From a virus, in IMG/VR virus record IMGVR_UViG_3300037961_002050, positions 1 through 22,745 of that record: a DNA stretch of 22,745 nt, one strand, 5' to 3'. This document shows positions 7,077-15,019 of this stretch, piece by piece. A program made the translations under genes and the position numbers. Each line of letters opens with the position of its first letter. The stretch's first letter is position 1. The notes under the pieces were generated by a model, which did not search any database, was not told the origin of the DNA, and saw nothing but the letters and a program-made list of their open reading frames with translations.

Positions 7077-7252
7077 GCGACAAAAAAATCGCACAAGGTT
7101 GGATTGACGGAGGGGGCTACGGCTCCCTCCCACCCAACTCGCACAAGAAAAGCAGTAAATACCACACGGGGCCGCAGAAAACGTACTACAAAGGCGTCAA
7201 AACGTGGGATCCTTGGAAGAAACGTTGGTGGGTTATTCAGACGTACCCATGA
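7073..7252 (+). CDS. Hypothetical basic protein, 59 residues
   Basis: ATG 7073 overlaps the previous stop by ATGA, and TGA 7250-7252 overlaps the methyltransferase ATG by ATGA. The 59-residue product is basic and aromatic, with a glycine-rich N-terminal stretch (GWIDGGGYGSLPP) and a Trp-rich end (WDPWKKRWWVI). It has no family I recognise. It likely bridges translation into the methyltransferase gene. Confidence 0.55.
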   Translation: MSDKKIAQGWIDGGGYGSLPPNSHKKSSKYHTGPQKTYYKGVKTWDPWKKRWWVIQTYP

Positions 7253-8133
7253 ATCACGGGTCATTATTTTCAGGAATCGGAGGTTTCGATCTTGCCGCGC
7301 AATGGGTTGGTTGGACAAACGTATTCAATTGCGAGTGGGAGGACTTTCCCCGCCGCGTACTTAAACATCATTTTCCACATGTCACGCAACACAAAGACAT
7401 CAGGGACCTCGACGCGACAACTTACGCTGGACGAGTTGATATTGTCAGCGGAGGGTTCCCCTGCCAACCATACAGCCTCGCCGGAAAGCGAAAGGGCAAA
7501 GACGACGAGCGCCACCTGTGGCCCGAGATGCTTAGGGTTGTTCGAGAATGCGCCCCGCGCTACGTCGTGGGCGAAAACGTTCGCGGGCTTGTTAGTTGGA
7601 ATGGAGGGATGGTCTTCGAGGAGGTGTGTACTGACTTGGAAGCTCTTGGGTACGCCGTTCAACCGTTCGTACTTCCGGCTTGCGGCGTCGGCGCCCCCCA
7701 CAGACGAGATAGAGTTTGGTTTGTTGCTCACACCGACCACAAGGGAGGAGGTGATGGACACGCAGAAGTTCAAGGAGCGCATGGAGAAGTACGACAACGG
7801 GACAACAGTGCCAAATTTGGCAACGCAAGTCGTCGGACTGCTACCAACGCCGACAGCCGACAACGCCAGCGACAGGACGAAAAATTACGCACAGGGAGGG
7901 ACGCCACTGCCGATGGCGATTCGCGCTCTCTTGCCAACTCCAACGGCGTACGACTGGAACACAGCGAGGAGTCCGGAGAAGTGGGACGAGTTCTCACAGG
8001 CGTTACGCACAAGCCGCTAAAGCAACTTGCTGGGACAAATTTCCAACTGTCGCCCCTGTTTGTGGAGGAGATGATGGGATTCCCGAGAAATTGGACGGCA
8101 TTACCTTTCCAAAGTGGCGACGAGAAAGCATAA
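7249..8133 (+). CDS. dcm: DNA cytosine-C5 methyltransferase, C-terminus frameshifted
   Basis: 294 residues as read from ATG 7249. Motif I FSGIGGFDL (7-15), motif IV GGFPCQPY with catalytic Cys72, motif VI ENV (109-111) and motif VIII GAPHRRDRVWF (148-158) are intact. These bind S-adenosylmethionine and form the covalent cytosine intermediate, giving 5-methylcytosine. Residues ~160-250 would be target recognition. The last ~35 codons read QLSPLFVEEMMGFP, which I associate with the overlapping +1-frame family. The expected Dcm end (ESIKAYGNAIVP, motif X) lies in frame at 8010-8219. A single missing base near 8005-8022 would restore a 323-residue enzyme. Without it the product lacks motif X and may be inactive. 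It probably supplies 5mC to the TET-like oxygenase at 11755. Confidence 0.85.
   Translation: MNHGSLFSGIGGFDLAAQWVGWTNVFNCEWEDFPRRVLKHHFPHVTQHKDIRDLDATTYAGRVDIVSGGFPCQPYSLAGKRKGKDDERHLWPEMLRVVRECAPRYVVGENVRGLVSWNGGMVFEEVCTDLEALGYAVQPFVLPACGVGAPHRRDRVWFVAHTDHKGGGDGHAEVQGAHGEVRQRDNSAKFGNASRRTATNADSRQRQRQDEKLRTGRDATADGDSRSLANSNGVRLEHSEESGEVGRVLTGVTHKPLKQLAGTNFQLSPLFVEEMMGFPRNWTALPFQSGDEKA
7292..8020 (+). other. Long +1-frame ORF inside dcm with periodic TPT motifs
   Basis: The +1 frame of dcm stays open for 242 codons (TTG 7292 to TAA 8018-8020). It contains three spaced motifs: LLLTPTT at 7721, LLPTPTA near 7838 and LLPTPTA near 7928. The same bases encode HTD, TNAD and ANSN in the dcm frame. 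Sequences with repeated LPTPTA followed by MMGFP are familiar to me from databases, usually as unnamed or methyltransferase-annotated proteins. I cannot tell whether this frame is translated or is a by-product of dcm codon constraints. It is listed as an overlapping ORF, not as a confirmed gene. Confidence 0.4.
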
Positions 8134-8219
8134 AGGCCTACGGCAACGCAATTGTACCACACGTGGCCTTGCAGATTTTTAAGGCGATTGAATCTTTGGA
8201 AAATGGAACGAGAATTTAA
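8010..8219 (+). pseudogene. Out-of-frame C-terminal segment of dcm (motif X)
   Basis: In the frame one base back from dcm, the sequence reads from about 8010 through CWDKFPTVAPVC and GGDDGIPEKLDGITFP to KWRRESIKAYGNAIVP, ending at TAA 8217-8219. The GNAIVP block is Dcm motif X, which packs against motif I to complete the cofactor site. The preceding FPTxxPVCGGDDG block is typical of this Bacteroidota methyltransferase group. Its stop overlaps the replication gene start by 17 bases, the same overlap seen at several other junctions here. This supports it as the true ancestral C-terminus, separated by a one-base change. Confidence 0.75.
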
Positions 8220-8892
8220 GGGCGTATGGATTCCAGCCGAAGTGTGGTTGGACACAAAGTTGACGTTGGTCGAAAAGGCATTGCTTGCTGAGATTGATTC
8301 GTTCACTGGTGCGGGCAAGAGCTTTCACAAGTCGAATGAAACAATACAAGTTGAATACGGCATTAGCCGTCCGACAATTTCAAAGGCCATCAAAAAACTT
8401 CAGGGCTTGGGGTACATCACATCGACATCAGACGGTCGCGTTCGTCACTTAGTCGTACAAGCAGACCGAAAAATTCTTACGGGCAGGGGGAAAGATTCTT
8501 TCGGGCAGACCGAAAAAACGTTTCGGGCAGAAGGAAAGAATAGTACCCCTACTAATACATTAGAGAGAACAAGTAAAAAAACAATCAAAGGGAGTAAGGC
8601 ACGCCCACAAAATTTGGACGAGGTTTTGGAAGCGTTCAAAGCCGTCGGCGCCGAGGAAGTAGACGCAATGCAGTTTTACGACTACTACTCGGCCAACGGT
8701 TGGACACAGGGCCGTGGCAAACCCATCAAGGACTGGAAGGCCGCCGCGCGCGGTTGGATTCGTAGAACACAACAATTCAAAGCAAATGAAAGACCTCGCA
8801 AAGGCACAACAACAACTGGCCCATCGGACGGCTCACTCATTGAGCAACATCTCCGCCGCCTCGCGGATGGATCCGGTACAGGCATGGCGTGA
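8203..8892 (+). CDS. DnaD-like replication initiation / replisome organizer protein
   Basis: 229 residues from ATG 8203 (MEREFKGVWIPAEVW). Residues 1-85 form a winged-helix domain (TLVEKALLAEIDSF; recognition helix SRPTISKAIKKL; wing GYITSTSDGRV) of the type at the front of phage replisome organizers. A low-complexity linker (88-135) follows. The C-terminal module FYDYYSANGWTQGRGKPIKDWKAAARGWIRR (158-188, quoted in parts: FYDYYSANGW, KDWKAAARGWIRR) is the conserved tail of DnaD/helix-turn-helix replication proteins. It should melt the origin and recruit helicase. The linker is encoded by four 22-bp DNA iterons, as in lambda O. Confidence 0.75.
   Translation: MEREFKGVWIPAEVWLDTKLTLVEKALLAEIDSFTGAGKSFHKSNETIQVEYGISRPTISKAIKKLQGLGYITSTSDGRVRHLVVQADRKILTGRGKDSFGQTEKTFRAEGKNSTPTNTLERTSKKTIKGSKARPQNLDEVLEAFKAVGAEEVDAMQFYDYYSANGWTQGRGKPIKDWKAAARGWIRRTQQFKANERPRKGTTTTGPSDGSLIEQHLRRLADGSGTGMA
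8455..8542 (+). repeat. Four tandem 22-bp iterons (probable origin of replication)
   Basis: Four head-to-tail copies start at 8455, 8477, 8499 and 8521, exactly 22 bases apart. The core is TTTCGGGCAGA in copies 3 and 4, TTACGGGCAG in copy 2 and GTACAAGCAGA in copy 1. Each core is followed by a GAAA-type A-rich half (for example CCGAAAAA in copies 1 and 3). Because 22 is not a multiple of 3, the encoded peptide does not repeat, so selection must act on the DNA. Two helical turns per unit fits side-by-side initiator binding. Confidence 0.75.
8531..8590 (+). other. AT-rich putative DNA unwinding element
   Basis: Directly after the iterons, 42 of 60 bases are A or T (70 percent), within an otherwise GC-richer operon. 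It is purine-rich on the + strand, with an A7 tract at 8575-8581. Iterons followed by an AT-rich stretch inside the initiator gene is the arrangement of the lambda origin. Confidence 0.5.
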
Positions 8893-9430
8893 AGGCGTTA
8901 ACGTTCAAGCCGCCTACAACAACCCTCAAACGCAAGCGGCGGTAGAAGCTACCTTGATTGCGATGGTCGCGAAGACGCTCCGGTACTTGGACTACTCCCG
9001 AACCATCACAGCCGACCAAGACATCATCGACGCTGTAGAACACTTGCGCCTTGAGTTCCCGGCCATGAAGCTCGAAGAATGGGCAATCATATTCCACCGG
9101 CTGAAGACGGGTCAATATCGTCCCGGTTACGAGCGTTTGAAGTTGCCTGAACTTGTGTCTATATTTCAGCAGTACGAAGGCGAACGCGCCGAGCGTCGCG
9201 AGGAAAATTGGGGTGAGTTAAAAAAGCACACACCAAACAACCTGAACGACGAGCAAGTGCAAGCCTTATACGCCAAATACGCACAACAACGCCGTGAAGC
9301 GATCGAAGCCGCTAAAAAGGAAACCGAAGTCAAGCACGTCCCAACGGACGAGCGAGGCCGGTGGAACTTCATCCCGTACCCGAACACGAAAGACAACGAA
9401 CCCGAGGGGGGCGATGGTCAAAAAGGTTGA
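8786..9430 (+). CDS. DUF6633-like replication accessory protein
   Basis: 214 residues from ATG 8786, overlapping the replication gene by 107 bases. ATG 8867 would cut the overlap to 26 bases and is a good alternative. The central region (TITADQDIIDAVEHLRLEFP, then LEEWAIIFHRLKTGQYRPGYERL, given in parts) matches a helical pattern I recall from DUF6633 proteins of Bacteroidota elements, with the YERL..PELVSIFQQYEGER end. These proteins sit beside DnaD-like genes, so a helicase-loader or accessory role is likely but unproven. A charged C-terminal tail follows. It overlaps the nuclease gene by 17 bases. Confidence 0.5.
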   Translation: MKDLAKAQQQLAHRTAHSLSNISAASRMDPVQAWREGVNVQAAYNNPQTQAAVEATLIAMVAKTLRYLDYSRTITADQDIIDAVEHLRLEFPAMKLEEWAIIFHRLKTGQYRPGYERLKLPELVSIFQQYEGERAERREENWGELKKHTPNNLNDEQVQALYAKYAQQRREAIEAAKKETEVKHVPTDERGRWNFIPYPNTKDNEPEGGDGQKG

Positions 9431-9797
9431 TGCGGTCTTCTCTCAATACGTGCGGCTCCGCGCGACAGACGACACAGGACACGGGGAGTGCTACACGTGC
9501 GGCTCGCGTCGGCATTGGTCAGAGGTTGATGCAGGGCACTTTATGTCTCGGGCTTGTATGTCTACCCGGTGGCACGAGGACAACGTGCAATTCCAGTGCA
9601 AGCGTTGTAATGGATTTAGGTCGGGTGAGCAATTTCTTTTTGCCCGCAACCTCGACGCTGAGTTTGGCGAAGGAAAGGCTGAGGAGTTATTCATCGAGTC
9701 CAAGCAAACGCGCAAGTGGACGCGCGCCGAGCTTGAACAAATGTATCACCACTATAAGCGCCTCGTCGATGAGCTCCGAAGCTCGAAAGGGATTTGA
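9414..9797 (+). CDS. NinG/Rap-like recombination nuclease
   Basis: 127 residues from ATG 9414. Zinc pairs CYTCG (Cys26, Cys29) and CKRCN (Cys62, Cys65) flank the conserved DAGHFMSRACMSTRWHEDN block (His42, His54), the signature of phage NinG proteins. Lambda NinG (Rap) is a structure-specific nuclease that cuts recombination junctions. The usual ~200-residue family is longer at the N-terminus, so this is a compact version. It sits among replication genes, as ninG does in lambdoid phages. It shares 29 bases with the sigma-like gene. Confidence 0.75.
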   Translation: MVKKVDAVFSQYVRLRATDDTGHGECYTCGSRRHWSEVDAGHFMSRACMSTRWHEDNVQFQCKRCNGFRSGEQFLFARNLDAEFGEGKAEELFIESKQTRKWTRAELEQMYHHYKRLVDELRSSKGI

Positions 9798-10257
9798 CGA
9801 GTGGTTCGTTGAGAACTACGACGACCTCGTCGCATCGGCTCGTGCGTTTCACCCGGACGGCTCCGATCTCGTCCACAATACCTACTTGCGAACCGTCGAC
9901 GCGCTTGAGCGCACCGGAAGGCCAATAGGCAAGTACAACGCATACTTCCGACAAGCCATGTGGACAGAGTCAACGCGAGGGGCTTTCAAATCGCTTTACA
10001 CGTACTTAGACGCCCCTCAAATAGAGTTGGCTAACCCCAGCCCCCAGCGCGACCCTTTCGAGGCCGAGAACGCGCTAATTTTGACTCGTCATTTAGCTTG
10101 GTTTGACCGAACTGTGCTTCAGCTTTACCTTGACGGCTACAACCTCCGTGAAGTAGCGAGACAATCAGGCATACCGCACACCACATTGTATCAATCTCTG
10201 CACCGAAGCAAAACAAAACTCCGCAATGTTCATCGTCAGCGCACAAACAAGGGCTAA
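9769..10257 (+). CDS. Sigma-70-family-like (ECF-type) transcription factor
   Basis: 162 residues from ATG 9769. Residues 10-60 resemble region 2 (DLVHNTYLRTVDALERTG, aromatic-rich KYNAYFRQAMW). Residues 125-155 are a clear region-4 helix-turn-helix (DGYNLREVARQSGIPHTTLY, then SKTKLRN). This layout is that of small phage-encoded sigma-like factors that could redirect host polymerase to late promoters. Core-binding residues of region 2 are only partly recognisable, so it may be a degenerate sigma or a late activator. It overlaps the next gene by 32 bases. Confidence 0.6.
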   Translation: MSSEARKGFDEWFVENYDDLVASARAFHPDGSDLVHNTYLRTVDALERTGRPIGKYNAYFRQAMWTESTRGAFKSLYTYLDAPQIELANPSPQRDPFEAENALILTRHLAWFDRTVLQLYLDGYNLREVARQSGIPHTTLYQSLHRSKTKLRNVHRQRTNKG

Positions 10258-11209: not shown

Positions 11210-11771
11210 CAACCCGCGCGCAATTCGCAAGGATCAACTTGACAAGCTCGTCAAGAGCCTGAAGGAATTCCCTGAAATGCTCGAAGCTCGGCCTATTGTC
11301 ATCGACAAAGATGGCGTGGTGCTTGGCGGCAATATGCGTCTACAAGCGGCACAACGCGCCGGCCTCGAAGAAGTGCCTGTGTACGTGCGAGAATGGGACG
11401 AAGCCAAAGACAGTCAATTTGTTGTCAAGGACAATGTCAGTTTTGGTGAGTGGGACTGGGACATGTTGGCAAATGAATGGGAAGTAGACGACCTCAAGGA
11501 CTGGGGTTTGTACGTTCCAAAGTGGGACGACACAAACTTTGAAAGCGACATCGAGGACACAGGCGAATACGACTACCCGGAGGATCTTGTGCCAAACTCT
11601 CAGGTGCGTATGGTTCAATTGTTCATGAACAGCGAAACCGAGCCGGAATTCAAAAAGTGGGAACTGGCTTTGCGTGGCCCGCACGGTACAGACAATCTGA
11701 CCGACACCATCTACGAGGTGGTCAAGAAAGCGTATGAAGACGGATTCGAGCATTATGGCGAAGGTTCATAA
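11169..11771 (+). CDS. ParB-like (ParB/Srx fold) protein
   Basis: 200 residues from GTG 11169; the domain itself begins around 11187, and other starts (ATG 11139) are possible. Residues ~8-80 carry the ParB/Srx pattern: NPNNPRAIRKDQ, ARPIVIDKDG, VLGGNMRLQAAQRAG. The next block (FVVKDNVSFGEWDWDMLANE, WEVDDLKDWGL) is the linker seen in ParB-methyltransferase fusions, but no methyltransferase domain follows; the protein ends in a helical tail. It could bind DNA or a nucleotide and partner with a separate modifying enzyme. It overlaps the TET/JBP-like gene by 17 bases, suggesting a shared task. Confidence 0.7.
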   Translation: MTYAKTANLKTNPNNPRAIRKDQLDKLVKSLKEFPEMLEARPIVIDKDGVVLGGNMRLQAAQRAGLEEVPVYVREWDEAKDSQFVVKDNVSFGEWDWDMLANEWEVDDLKDWGLYVPKWDDTNFESDIEDTGEYDYPEDLVPNSQVRMVQLFMNSETEPEFKKWELALRGPHGTDNLTDTIYEVVKKAYEDGFEHYGEGS

Positions 11772-12651
11772 AGTCCGGCCGCGATTGACGGACGAGCAAA
11801 CCAAAAAGCTCTCCGGGACGTTGTTGACAGACAAGGACTACAACAAGCTATTTACGTCCGACGTTGATGTGTACGACGAGGAAACCGGCCAATGCATTGC
11901 GAAGTTTCGCAAGCGCGTCATACCATCAAACATTGCTGAAGCGGCCTATGAAAACCTTAAGAAGGCCGCCACGCCAACGAACAACAGAGGCACAAGCACA
12001 GGGACTTCAGATGGCAAAGGCAAAGTGTCGCACCACCGCGTGAAGAAGGATGGTACCATTTCAAACTCTACTGGCGCACATACAGCCGTCAACAGTGGCA
12101 TCATCGGTTTTTTTGACAGGAACGCGCGTTACCCATATTGTCGGCAAACGGCCTTCAACATCAATGAATTCGACAAGTTCAAGAAGGCGTACCCTATCAT
12201 CAAATTCGTAGACAGCCAGTACGAGAAACTGATGCCTGATCACTACGCCAAACAAAGGGCCGTGGCAGACAATACCTCAAGTGACTTCACAATTCACAAC
12301 ACGGCGTTCACAACGGTGACGGTCAACAAGAATTGGCAGACAGCCGTACACACTGACAAGGGTGACTTCGCCGAGGGTTTTGGCAACCTCGTTGTGCTTC
12401 GAAAAGGCAGGTACACGGGAGGCTACTTCGTATTGCCCAAATGGGGCGTGGCGTTCGATATGCAGAATTGTGATTTGCTCCTGACTGACGTTCACCAATG
12501 GCACGGCAACACACCAATACACAAAATCGACGAAGATGCAACGCGCGTCTCGCTGGTCATGTACTACCGTGAGAACATGATTCACTGCGGCACGGGAGAG
12601 GAGGAAGCGCAAATTGCCAAGCGGCGTCAAAAGGGAACACGGCTAACGTAA
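11755..12651 (+). CDS. TET/JBP-like 2-oxoglutarate/Fe(II) DNA dioxygenase
   Basis: 298 residues from ATG 11755. The C-terminal half has the double-stranded beta-helix core: AVHTDKGD gives the HxD iron ligands His199 and Asp201; LLTDVHQWHGNTP supplies the distal His (247 or 250); and Arg264 in ATRVSLVMYY fits the 2-oxoglutarate-binding Arg. The order NKNWQTAVHTDKGD, GGYFVLPKWGVAFD, HGNTP matches TET/JBP proteins, which hydroxylate the methyl group of 5mC or thymine in DNA. The N-terminal ~110 residues are extra, with a low-complexity Ser/Thr/Gly part near 75-90. The methyltransferase upstream points to 5mC as substrate; thymine remains possible. Confidence 0.8.
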   Translation: MAKVHKVRPRLTDEQTKKLSGTLLTDKDYNKLFTSDVDVYDEETGQCIAKFRKRVIPSNIAEAAYENLKKAATPTNNRGTSTGTSDGKGKVSHHRVKKDGTISNSTGAHTAVNSGIIGFFDRNARYPYCRQTAFNINEFDKFKKAYPIIKFVDSQYEKLMPDHYAKQRAVADNTSSDFTIHNTAFTTVTVNKNWQTAVHTDKGDFAEGFGNLVVLRKGRYTGGYFVLPKWGVAFDMQNCDLLLTDVHQWHGNTPIHKIDEDATRVSLVMYYRENMIHCGTGEEEAQIAKRRQKGTRLT

Positions 12652-13262
12652 TGTGTGGGGTCGTCGGGTTTTCGTGCGACGCGCCACAAGCCGCGCACTA
12701 CGAGTTGCTCAAACGCATCATGCGTGAAAGCAAGATTCGTGGGTTGCACAGCTTCGGAGTGGCGTACGTCGACGACGGCATCAAGGTCAACAAGGTCCAC
12801 GACCTCGACGAGCTTGACATACCTCAGGCCACGCGCATCATTTTCCACAACCGCTACTCGACAAGCGGGGACTACCTCGACCACGAGAACAACCAACCCT
12901 TGTCAAACAAGTCAACGGCGCTTGTATTTAACGGTGTCCTTGACATGCGTACAAAAGACGAAATGGAAGCCGCGTACAACGTCACTTTGTCGTGCGACAA
13001 TGACGGTGCGCTACTGCTCGAATTGTGCAATGACGACCCCGAGGAAATGTTGCAGTGGACGAAGGAACGCAACGCCAGTTTTGCTGGCTTGGTTTTAAGC
13101 TCGTCAAATGTGCTGACCGCCTTCCGCAATGCCAACCGTCCTTTGTGGCTGGCAACATACCAGGGCGGGCTATATTTCGCTTCGACAAGGGACATTTTCA
13201 TGAGGGCAGAACCGTCGTTGGATCCAATAGAACTCAAACCGGACACCCTCTATGCAGATTAG
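12651..13262 (+). CDS. Class II glutamine amidotransferase
   Basis: 203 residues; ATG shares one base with the previous TAA. The start MCGVVGF gives the N-terminal nucleophile Cys2 after Met removal. RGLHSFGVAY, HNRYSTSGDY (Arg68), ENNQPL, VFNGVLDM (Asn94-Gly95) and CDNDGALLLEL complete the GATase II set as in GlmS and PurF. It would release ammonia from glutamine. There is no synthetase or isomerase domain, so ammonia must go to a partner enzyme. Lying between a DNA dioxygenase and an AGPT-like transferase, it is a likely nitrogen donor for base modification; that is inference. Confidence 0.85.
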   Translation: MCGVVGFSCDAPQAAHYELLKRIMRESKIRGLHSFGVAYVDDGIKVNKVHDLDELDIPQATRIIFHNRYSTSGDYLDHENNQPLSNKSTALVFNGVLDMRTKDEMEAAYNVTLSCDNDGALLLELCNDDPEEMLQWTKERNASFAGLVLSSSNVLTAFRNANRPLWLATYQGGLYFASTRDIFMRAEPSLDPIELKPDTLYAD

Positions 13263-13656
13263 AAAAGCCATAGCCACCGACGCGGACTTCATTAAGAAGA
13301 TTCACAAGCAACACAAGGCACACATTGGTTCGTTCAACCTTTTTTGGAGTTGGGACCACTACCTTGACGGGACAAACAAAAGCAAGTTCTTTGTCATTGA
13401 AGGCGGTGGCTTCATGCGCTACTCGTATTCAAAAATGTACACGGCCTACATCTTGCATGAGATAGGCGTCGACAATGAGACGACACGCAAGGGCGTCGGC
13501 CGAGCATTATTTGAAGCCCTCCCGCGCCCCTTGATGCTCAAGTGCAATGTTGACAACGACCGGGGCAATGCGTTTTACGAAGCAATGGGGATGACCAAAA
13601 TGGGAAAGACGGCTACGAAGAAAGGCGTCGAGCAAAACGTATGGTGGATTACCTGA
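13252..13656 (+). CDS. GNAT-family N-acetyltransferase
   Basis: 134 residues from ATG 13252, overlapping the amidotransferase by 11 bases. Motif A is visible as LHEIGVDNETTRKGVGRALF (RKGVGRA is the acetyl-CoA pyrophosphate loop) and motif B as NDRGNAFYEAMGM. GNAT enzymes move an acetyl group from acetyl-CoA to an amine. In this operon the likely acceptor is an amino group placed on the modified base, as proposed for GNATs in other phage hypermodification clusters. A protein or small-molecule target cannot be ruled out. It overlaps the next gene by 16 bases. Confidence 0.8.
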   Translation: MQIRKAIATDADFIKKIHKQHKAHIGSFNLFWSWDHYLDGTNKSKFFVIEGGGFMRYSYSKMYTAYILHEIGVDNETTRKGVGRALFEALPRPLMLKCNVDNDRGNAFYEAMGMTKMGKTATKKGVEQNVWWIT

Positions 13657-14510
13657 CATACCACGTCGAGTCGTCCAAGGCGAAAGACATCGACCCAAGC
13701 AACGACGCCCTGCGGTATGTCGCAGATCGTTTCGAGCTTAATGTCGAACAACGCTACTGGCTTGCATTCCTTTTTGGCACGTGCTACTCGGCAACAAACG
13801 TCTACTACATCTACAATGAGTTCCCGGACTACGAAAATGTAGACGTCGGTCGACTTCAAAGGTGGTGGGACACGAATCGCGACCGCACATTGTTTCAAAC
13901 TGACCGCCTCCGCGTCAAGACGCAAAACAGGTTCGTCGAAACGTTTGTCAGCTACCGCGACCTGCTCAACGGCATGACGCAAGAAGAATACTTTGAGGGG
14001 CTAAAGCAACCGACGCGACAAAACACGTATGACAACGCCTTCCGTGACTTGTCAGGCATTCGCAACTTCGGGCGCTTCACAATGTTCATTTATCTTGAGA
14101 TGGTCAACGTGTTGACAGGCTTTGATCTCGAGCCAACACACCTTGACCTCGCCAATGCCGAAAGTTGTCGCAACGGCCTCGTGTATCACCTCGGAAAGAT
14201 GGAGCTCGACACACACGGGAAGAAAACAAGGTTGACAAAGAAGCAACTCGGCTACCTTCAATACGAGTTTCAAATGTTGAAGTCACACGTCGGAACTTAC
14301 GACATTGCACACCGCAACATTTGGAACATTGAAACAACCCTGTGCGCCTACAAGAAGTACCGACGCGGCAAGAGGTACGTCGGCTACTACATTGAACGTA
14401 TGCGAAAGGAAATAAACAAGATGGAAGGCAACGTGCCAACGGGCGTTGATTGGTCTGTCCTGTGGGACTTCCGACGCGAAACCTACGACCCGAAATGGCT
14501 CAACGAATAA
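13641..14510 (+). CDS. AGPT-pyrophosphorylase-like protein (HMUDK-helical type)
   Basis: 289 residues from ATG 13641, all-helical. Key stretches are VEQRYWLAFLFGTCYSATNV (35-54), GIRNFGRFTMFIYLEMV (139-155), DLANAESCRNGLVYHLG (169-185) and a basic C-terminal region (YKKYRRGKRYVGYYIERMR). I recognise these as the alpha-glutamyl/putrescinyl thymine pyrophosphorylase group, also seen as the helical domain beside hydroxymethyluracil DNA kinases. The family is proposed to replace the phosphorylated hydroxymethyl of a DNA base with an amine. Immediate overlap (16 bases) with the P-loop DNA kinase is the expected partnership. Confidence 0.7.
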   Translation: MVDYLTYHVESSKAKDIDPSNDALRYVADRFELNVEQRYWLAFLFGTCYSATNVYYIYNEFPDYENVDVGRLQRWWDTNRDRTLFQTDRLRVKTQNRFVETFVSYRDLLNGMTQEEYFEGLKQPTRQNTYDNAFRDLSGIRNFGRFTMFIYLEMVNVLTGFDLEPTHLDLANAESCRNGLVYHLGKMELDTHGKKTRLTKKQLGYLQYEFQMLKSHVGTYDIAHRNIWNIETTLCAYKKYRRGKRYVGYYIERMRKEINKMEGNVPTGVDWSVLWDFRRETYDPKWLNE

Positions 14511-15019
14511 TTGCCATTGGTGGCACGCCCGGAAGCGGGAAGACCACCCTCATGCTCAAGGTTCTCGACAACTTCAAGGGCAAACTACGCACCTTCAGTT
14601 ACAAGAACCTTCGAGGAATGCATAGCAAGGAAGACAACCTCTACATCCTCGGGGTCTATGATGGATCGACATTTAGCGGCACGGACAAACTCGCGATGAA
14701 TGTCTTTCCGCACTTCACGTCGTTTCTGTCAAAGGTGCCCGAGGCCGTAGTATTGTTTGAAGGCAACCGCCTGTTTGTGCCGAAGCTGTTCGACAACCAC
14801 GAGTGCGACATCTTAGTAGTCCGCGCCGACAGCGACCTCATTGAGCAACGGTTTGTCAATCGTGGGAGCAACCAGCCGGAACGTTTCTTGAAGGCGGTGA
14901 AAACCAAGACAGAGCGTATCATTGCAAAGTACCCTTCGACAATCCTACACAACAACAACGAGGAAGACCTCGAAAGTAACACACAACACATTTTGAGCTT
15001 GATTCATGAACAAAACTGA
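14495..15019 (+). CDS. Hydroxymethylpyrimidine DNA kinase-like P-loop protein
   Basis: 174 residues from ATG 14495. Walker A is GGTPGSGKTT (residues 9-18). YILGVYDGSTFSGTDKLAMN and VVLFEGNRLFVPKLF follow in the order I know from the 5-hydroxymethyluracil DNA kinases of phages with hypermodified thymine. The enzyme would phosphorylate the hydroxymethyl group of a base already in DNA, activating it for the AGPT-like transferase encoded just before. With a TET-like enzyme as the source of hydroxymethyl, 5hmC is the most economical substrate, though 5hmU is possible. It overlaps terS by 14 bases. Confidence 0.75.
   Translation: MAQRIIAIGGTPGSGKTTLMLKVLDNFKGKLRTFSYKNLRGMHSKEDNLYILGVYDGSTFSGTDKLAMNVFPHFTSFLSKVPEAVVLFEGNRLFVPKLFDNHECDILVVRADSDLIEQRFVNRGSNQPERFLKAVKTKTERIIAKYPSTILHNNNEEDLESNTQHILSLIHEQN

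Follow-up and report, generated by a model that had tools for sequence, protein, structure and literature searches.

The window analysed here, a viral DNA stretch of 22,745 nucleotides (positions 1 to 22,745 of IMG/VR record IMGVR_UViG_3300037961_002050), contains a Dcm gene whose +1 frame is also open over several hundred bases, and the locus raises the question of what this second frame represents. The preliminary description had put the matter as an alternative: either a true protein is encoded on top of Dcm, or the frame and its database counterparts are shadows held open by constraint. The first half of this alternative stands and the second does not. The ORF listing bears out the frame as described (7292-8020, plus strand, TTG, 242 aa), and from stop to stop it extends over 7253-8020, 255 codons without a stop. 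The three TPT motifs reported for it are all read in +1, LLLTPTT at 7721-7741 and LLPTPTA at 7838-7858 and 7928-7948, and the Dcm frame over or beside them reads AHTD from 7726, TNAD from 7843 and ANSN from 7933, as had been noted. When the Dcm protein was kept and its synonymous codons were permuted, the +1 frame was open over 7253-8017 in 0.03% of 20,000 shuffles; the openness of this frame is more than chance.

The Dcm frame, hereafter alpha, starts at ATG 7249. It is assigned over 7249..8133 (+) to methyltransferase motifs I-VIII followed by a variable hydrophilic stretch, on the basis of a PF00145 match (E 1.3e-42), the motif positions (LFSGIGGF at 7264, GGFPCQPYS at 7450, GENV at 7570 and RRDRVWFVA at 7702, all on the plus strand) and the M.HhaI-like model of an intact relative, L004. 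The +1 frame, hereafter beta, has no match in Pfam. Profile positions 22-178 of phrog_1008, described as "DNA methyltransferase", match it at E 1.2e-18, and positions 244-282 match the C-terminus of the Dcm frame weakly (E 0.0035). This was the first hint that the frames swap roles in the window. Very probably the product of the locus is a heterodimeric cytosine-5 DNA methyltransferase whose two genes are long, lie on the same strand and overlap, beta being nested in the +1 frame of alpha. Judged by sequence, motifs I-VIII and X fall to alpha, and the LPTPT modules and motif IX to beta. Of the two alternatives left open by the earlier reading the real protein is the right one; what that reading missed is that this protein carries motif IX and is the partner subunit of the enzyme itself.

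Relatives were collected as closest matches in viral sequences, using the +1 frame (77 loci), the Dcm frame (best 80 of 589 confirmed loci) and the first 115 alpha residues, upstream of motif VIII and the TPT region (best 80 of 598 confirmed loci), and in bacterial and archaeal genomes using the first 153 alpha residues (64 loci). The viral set found with the alpha N-terminus was picked regardless of the TPT region and consists of the closest 80, not a random sample. The layout was tallied with HMMs built from intact split loci, the frame of each match being free to vary. In 77 of these 80 viral loci (best 80 of 598), motif VIII, the beta N-terminus, motif IX and motif X lie in frames (0,1,1,0) relative to alpha with both frames open, a count free of any requirement for open frames. 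The alpha chain has motifs I, IV (PCQ), VI (ENV) and VIII and the SAM-binding catalytic fold (PF00145, L004 model), and it does not hold both remaining motifs, since in those 77 loci IX falls in +1 and only X stays in frame 0. The three exceptions are one locus cut by a contig end (L163) and two that are shifted (L174 and L175). Among the genome loci the same layout recurs in 46 of 64, including those of Flavobacterium, Pedobacter, Dyadobacter, Chitinophaga and Bacillus. Of the others, L275 and L278 have a frame shift, and 16 are truncated or partial loci or distant relatives with some parts unrecognised. These tallies supersede a first one by regular expressions (72 of 80 among the best 80 of 598; 24 of 64), whose misses were mostly variant motif spellings or failed anchors.

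The beta members of all 59 relatives examined match phrog_1008, and beta thus belongs to this family, whose PHROG description is silent on a nested subunit. Searched against Pfam at E 0.1, the same 59 members gave only weak matches to five unrelated families, with one to three members each. Of 195 unique split loci, 182 have 71 nt between motifs IX and X, nine have 41 or 47 nt and four have other values. The 41/47-nt spacing occurs with the nested layout in L279, L280, L281 and L285, which are from Bacilli, and also in L052, L063, L261, L273 and L288. In L174 (2495-2510), and at the same place in L175, an identical frame shift lies in a long G run ahead of motif VIII; as a result, a single ORF runs from alpha motifs I-VI into beta, and VIII and X are left in a different frame. 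The two loci are identical over 1,500 bases, and slippage or phase variation at the G run is possible.

The window copy departs from this layout, a point that the preliminary description had overlooked. Its signature is (0,1,0,2), against (0,1,1,0) in the relatives. Beta is assigned to 7379..8020 (+), 213 codons from ATG to stop, from its phrog_1008 match (E 1.2e-18), the start analysis and the purifying selection in relatives. It comprises the N-terminus MSRNTKTSGTSTRQLTLDEL, an LTWK..NRSYF stretch and the three TPT modules placed by motif position, LLLTPTT (7721..7741, +), LLPTPTA (7838..7858, +) and LLPTPTA (7928..7948, +), the last of which (TAYDWNTARSPEKWDEFSQAL) resembles a module of relative L010 by protein comparison. 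The +1 frame of the window does not hold the whole protein. Motif IX (LSPLFVEEMMGFPRNWT, 8047..8097, +), which is beta's, is here in the alpha frame, as placed by profile match, HMM frame tally and motif position. Motif X (SIKAYGNAIVPHVALQIFKAIE, 8127..8192, +), which is alpha's, is in the third frame, open to 8219 (ORF listing, HMM frame tally and motif position), and the alpha frame runs out of frame ahead of it. Frame signature and protein comparison put both frames one step off the intact relatives within 7949..8046 (+), and one small length change in this interval is read as cutting both subunits off from their last motifs, IX for beta and X for alpha. By alignment score, L049, L004, L002, L080 and L010 are the nearest intact relatives.

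The length change may be either a mutation or an assembly error, and we regard it as an even question whether the window copy is a decayed methyltransferase whose long ORFs are functionless remnants. Motifs IX and X are both one frame off in L140 and L278 as well, shifts lie further upstream in L174, L175 and L275, and the record has no other PF00145 gene, all of which would suit decay. Against it, assembly of a metagenome contig can itself introduce a single length change, and neither frame of the window has any further stop or shift. A second contig with the window stretch was not found in viral_contigs with one exact 26-base pattern.

Selection in the two frames was examined in the relatives. 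The 300 collected loci, many of which share a contig, were reduced to 254 in which both motifs lie in open frames, and to 195 unique ones among these. Open frames at both motifs were thus required of the 195, and the absence of stops among them is partly by construction; the tally of 77 in 80 viral loci (best 80 of 598) is free of this, and the near absence of +1 stops there argues against a shadow. The 182 loci with 71-nt spacing gave 3,065 candidate pairs, and DNA alignments were made of 1,500 of them; divergence was 3-28% in 1,455, and 78 pairs sharing no sequence were kept. Changes were counted in two frames with our own script following the logic of OLGenie (single changes, transition weight 2, bootstrap over pairs).

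In the 78 independent pairs, differences at alpha codon positions 1/2/3 were.124/.055/.383 in DNA belonging to alpha only and.155/.090/.429 past the stop of beta. Between motifs VIII and IX they were.324/.170/.161, and alpha's position 1 is the third position of beta. Position 1 exceeded position 3 in 71 of 77 pairs in this region, compared with one of 78 in the alpha-only part; six of the 77 did not show the flip. At motif IX the pairs with position 1 above position 3 outnumbered the reverse by 39 to 24, and past the stop of beta the figures were 3 against 33. The synonymous sites of dcm are thus strongly constrained in the overlap, which also tells against a shadow.

Between VIII and IX the ratios for beta were.27 (.17-.55; dSN/dSS) and.23 (.19-.27; dNN/dNS), and those for alpha 1.01 (.62-2.0; dNS/dSS) and.84 (.70-1.0; dNN/dSN), with few SS sites (11 changes over 31 opportunities). 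In this region beta is under purifying selection (dN/dS about 0.25), and the alpha amino acids are close to neutral (0.84-1.01) though their frame stays open. It is the Dcm frame, and not the +1 frame, that drifts freely between the two motifs, a point missed by the earlier reading. Both frames are constrained in the motif IX part (alpha.19 and.12; beta.16 and.10), and from +133 to motif VIII both ratios are low as well (alpha.13 and.15; beta.25 and.30). Shuffles predict that 5.1 of 195 beta frames would be open by chance given the alpha protein, and 1.2 of 195 alpha frames given the beta protein. Taken together, the phase flip, the two-frame ratios and the shuffle expectations indicate that both frames are translated and that the variable region is kept for beta.

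In M.EcoHK31I the gene of the small subunit lies within that of the large one, in a different frame, and M.EaeI is another two-polypeptide enzyme of this kind. The small subunit described here is likewise nested, in +1, with its own selection and start. M.EcoHK31I (YGGCCR) has been termed naturally split (PMC3439449), and a second article divides it into a large polypeptide, with motifs I-VIII, motif X and a predicted recognition domain, and a small one that contributes motif IX only (PMC3404938). The present family resembles it in that the large subunit has I-VIII and X and the small one IX (77 of 80 viral loci among the best 80 of 598, and 46 of 64 genome loci, with the window copy interrupted). 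Beta in this family mostly has two or three LxTP motifs (148 of 195 loci; range 0 to 6), and the likening to M.EcoHK31I is by published description only. The two differ in that the literature places the recognition domain in the large subunit, whereas selection here points to the small one. In enzymes of the M.AquI type, according to the same article (PMC3404938), the break follows motif VIII; one subunit is catalytic, and the other carries the recognition region and motif IX. The enzyme described here is similarly split after VIII, but motif X, which is in the small subunit of M.AquI, is in the alpha frame.

An AquI-like layout with LPTP modules is found in Streptomyces phage Samy and Mycobacterium phage Ovechkin. 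In Samy, beta has motifs IX and X in +1 and alpha ends shortly after VIII. In two actinophages, Ovechkin (gp69/gp70) and Colucci (gp82/gp83), a separate beta-like gene with LPTP modules, IX and X lies beside an alpha that ends soon past VIII. The Samy beta is matched by 570 phage records, nearly all of actinobacterial phages.

That alpha might hold the recognition domain and beta give motif IX only, as is stated for M.EcoHK31I in PMC3404938, is improbable for this family. The VIII-IX stretch of alpha is nearly neutral at the amino-acid level, and it is modelled as disordered: in the alpha model of L004, residues 161-171 and 174-256 fall below pLDDT 50. The same model aligns with M.HhaI at Z 22.1 and rmsd 2.5 over 203 of 327 residues, and shows alpha as a predicted M.HhaI-like fold without a recognition domain. 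The alpha of Samy, too, ends soon past VIII. Near-neutral alpha sequence, the alpha model and the separate beta genes place the domain better in beta, which is its most likely location. The model of beta itself, which begins at +55 of motif IV and leaves out the N-terminus before it, has a mean pLDDT of 60.9 and a pTM of 0.23; it gave no match to the PDB in Foldseek at E 0.001, and the beta profile gave none to PDB sequences at E 1.

As to the start of beta, an ATG at -83..-38 of motif IV is present in 188 of 195 loci, compared with a mean of 108 (sd 6.2, max 126) in 100 shuffles keeping alpha. Within 200 nt looking back, the ATG that comes first downstream of the last +1 stop precedes motif IV in 190 of 195 loci, and it stands at -59, -56 or -71 of the motif in 149. 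The TTG at 7292, taken earlier as the start of the +1 ORF, gives way to ATG 7379 as the likely start of beta in the window. Starts at +55 or +151 of motif IV, where an ATG occurs in 106 and 98 of the 195 loci, were considered and rejected, because constraint is present already from near -90, because the upstream ATG is so widespread, and, for +55, because synonymous divergence from +58 to +148 is equal with or without that ATG (.19 in all three groups). Relative to motif IV, differences at alpha four-fold sites, in 30-nt bins, fall from.53 at -150 through.35 at -90 to.20 at -60, are.44 just past the motif and.31 at +30, and from +60 on lie at.08-.21, except for.35 in the +240 bin. A Shine-Dalgarno-like sequence precedes just five of 190 of these ATGs, so that initiation of beta would need to be independent of one.

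The alpha four-fold sites of the relatives are unusually conserved from -90 to 0 of motif IV (about 7360-7450 in the window), where beta starts. They differ by.20-.21 from -60 to 0, against.53-.54 upstream; in the three-group comparison the values before motif IV were.17-.33 against.49-.55, and in two groups they were lower than in the following 0-55 (.33-.36). The conserved stretch may include a translation-initiation signal.

A programmed +1 ribosomal frameshift from alpha into beta, which would give a single chain with I-VIII, the recognition domain and IX, is quite improbable. Such a shift would connect the correct parts, and the altered G-run length of L174/L175 does join alpha I-VI to beta in one ORF. 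On the other side, motif X remains in the alpha frame, and alpha is held open through its near-neutral stretch (1.2 of 195 expected), which would be pointless were ribosomes to leave it; the ATG of beta occupies a narrow place in 188 of 195 loci, and two-gene versions exist. As for a shadow ORF, open in +1 only through the codon and composition constraints of Dcm and accompanied by artefactual database entries, the alpha motifs do dictate part of the +1 sequence (SPANHTASP is motif IV read in +1) and window 7598-8017 by itself stays open in 4.4% of the shuffles, but the substitution pattern has, unless the pairs were phase-misaligned, already refuted it, and with 5.1 of 195 beta frames expected open by chance, motif IX outside alpha, in +1, for 77 of 80 loci (best 80 of 598), and a similar protein encoded by a separate, non-overlapping gene in Ovechkin, it deserves next to no credence.

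For the nested two-subunit enzyme the following scheme can be proposed. The outer gene would give alpha, with SAM binding, the catalytic Pro-Cys and motifs I-VIII, then a spacer of nearly free sequence and finally the motif X helix, which would close the catalytic fold. The inner +1 gene, from its own ATG about 20 codons ahead of motif IV, presumably by internal initiation, would give beta, made of an N-terminal part, usually two or three LPTPT modules (most likely the recognition domain) and motif IX, which would orient that domain. The TPT modules may contact the DNA, and alpha and beta would join as a heterodimer acting as one enzyme. Between VIII and IX the DNA is written for beta, and alpha would be held open merely so that ribosomes get to motif X. 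A plausible route to this arrangement leads from a single chain through an AquI-like split after VIII to a second frame change between IX and X, which would have put X back in alpha.

The layout as such is known from M.EcoHK31I; what is found here would be another variant, with the recognition domain read into the small subunit. Among the nearest relatives in environmental phages the nested pair is common, and genomes of Bacteroidota and Bacilli carry it too. Long same-strand overlaps with both frames under selection are, to our knowledge, rare outside small viruses. The same nested pair has been deposited as two overlapping CDSs in two Firmicute phages, Paenibacillus phages Lily (LILY_62/LILY_63, "g62 internal gene") and Tadhana (54/55); LILY_63 is recorded as "hypothetical protein" and the Tadhana CDSs as methyltransferases. 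In several other records, such as phages C72C1, BKO1-TP3 and Lc-Nu, only one gene is annotated. A one-gene annotation omits motif IX and, as we read it, the recognition domain, and those who use the annotated "Dcm" ORF alone for expression, typing or specificity prediction would have half an enzyme. The annotated frame appears here as an evolutionary passenger across several hundred bases, and the case points to where specificity should be sought. In literature on nested or overlapping methyltransferase genes, mostly from outside subscription journals and in part available only incompletely, no description of this phage family was found.

It is conceivable, and we suggest it tentatively as somewhat short of probable, that the nested layout serves the swapping of target specificity, recognition modules being traded among phages inside a catalytic-looking gene. 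Such exchange would be feasible since the overlapped stretch of alpha is nearly without amino-acid constraint: beta modules could be inserted, lost or exchanged if their length is a multiple of three and brings no stop in either frame, with alpha and motif X staying fixed. Signs of it are the varying number of LxTP motifs per beta (0 to 6) and near-identical modules in different contexts, noticed by eye: TAFDYNTPRSQEAWDKAKEKHG is found in L010 and L011, L049 and L080 share a TTGADHKTQY module, and the window has a related one.

At 11734-15019 the window holds a likely DNA base hypermodification cluster, for which the split methyltransferase could provide the 5mC. This cluster comprises a Tet_JBP oxygenase (11734-12651, E 2.7e-29), a glutamine amidotransferase (12651-13262, E 1.3e-9), a GNAT match below cut-off (13252-13656), an amino acid:DNA transferase, ADDT (13641-14510, E 2e-18), and, last, a protein (14450-15019) that matches terminase small subunits and, weakly, P-loop nucleotide kinases. 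A general tie of the split enzyme to a TET-type hypermodification pathway was rejected: Tet_JBP was found in none of 45 chosen records of relatives, many of them fragments, by the search that detects the window's own Tet_JBP.

On the minus strand, an ORF at 7270-7863 matches phrog_38519 (E 7.9e-6) and is perhaps the antisense shadow of dcm genes in the database. Downstream of a replication-initiation-like gene (8203-8892), and on the same strand, the gene at 9361-10257 has a C-terminus like sigma-70 region 4 or a helix-turn-helix (phrog_1740, E 1.3e-6; Pfam matches below cut-off).
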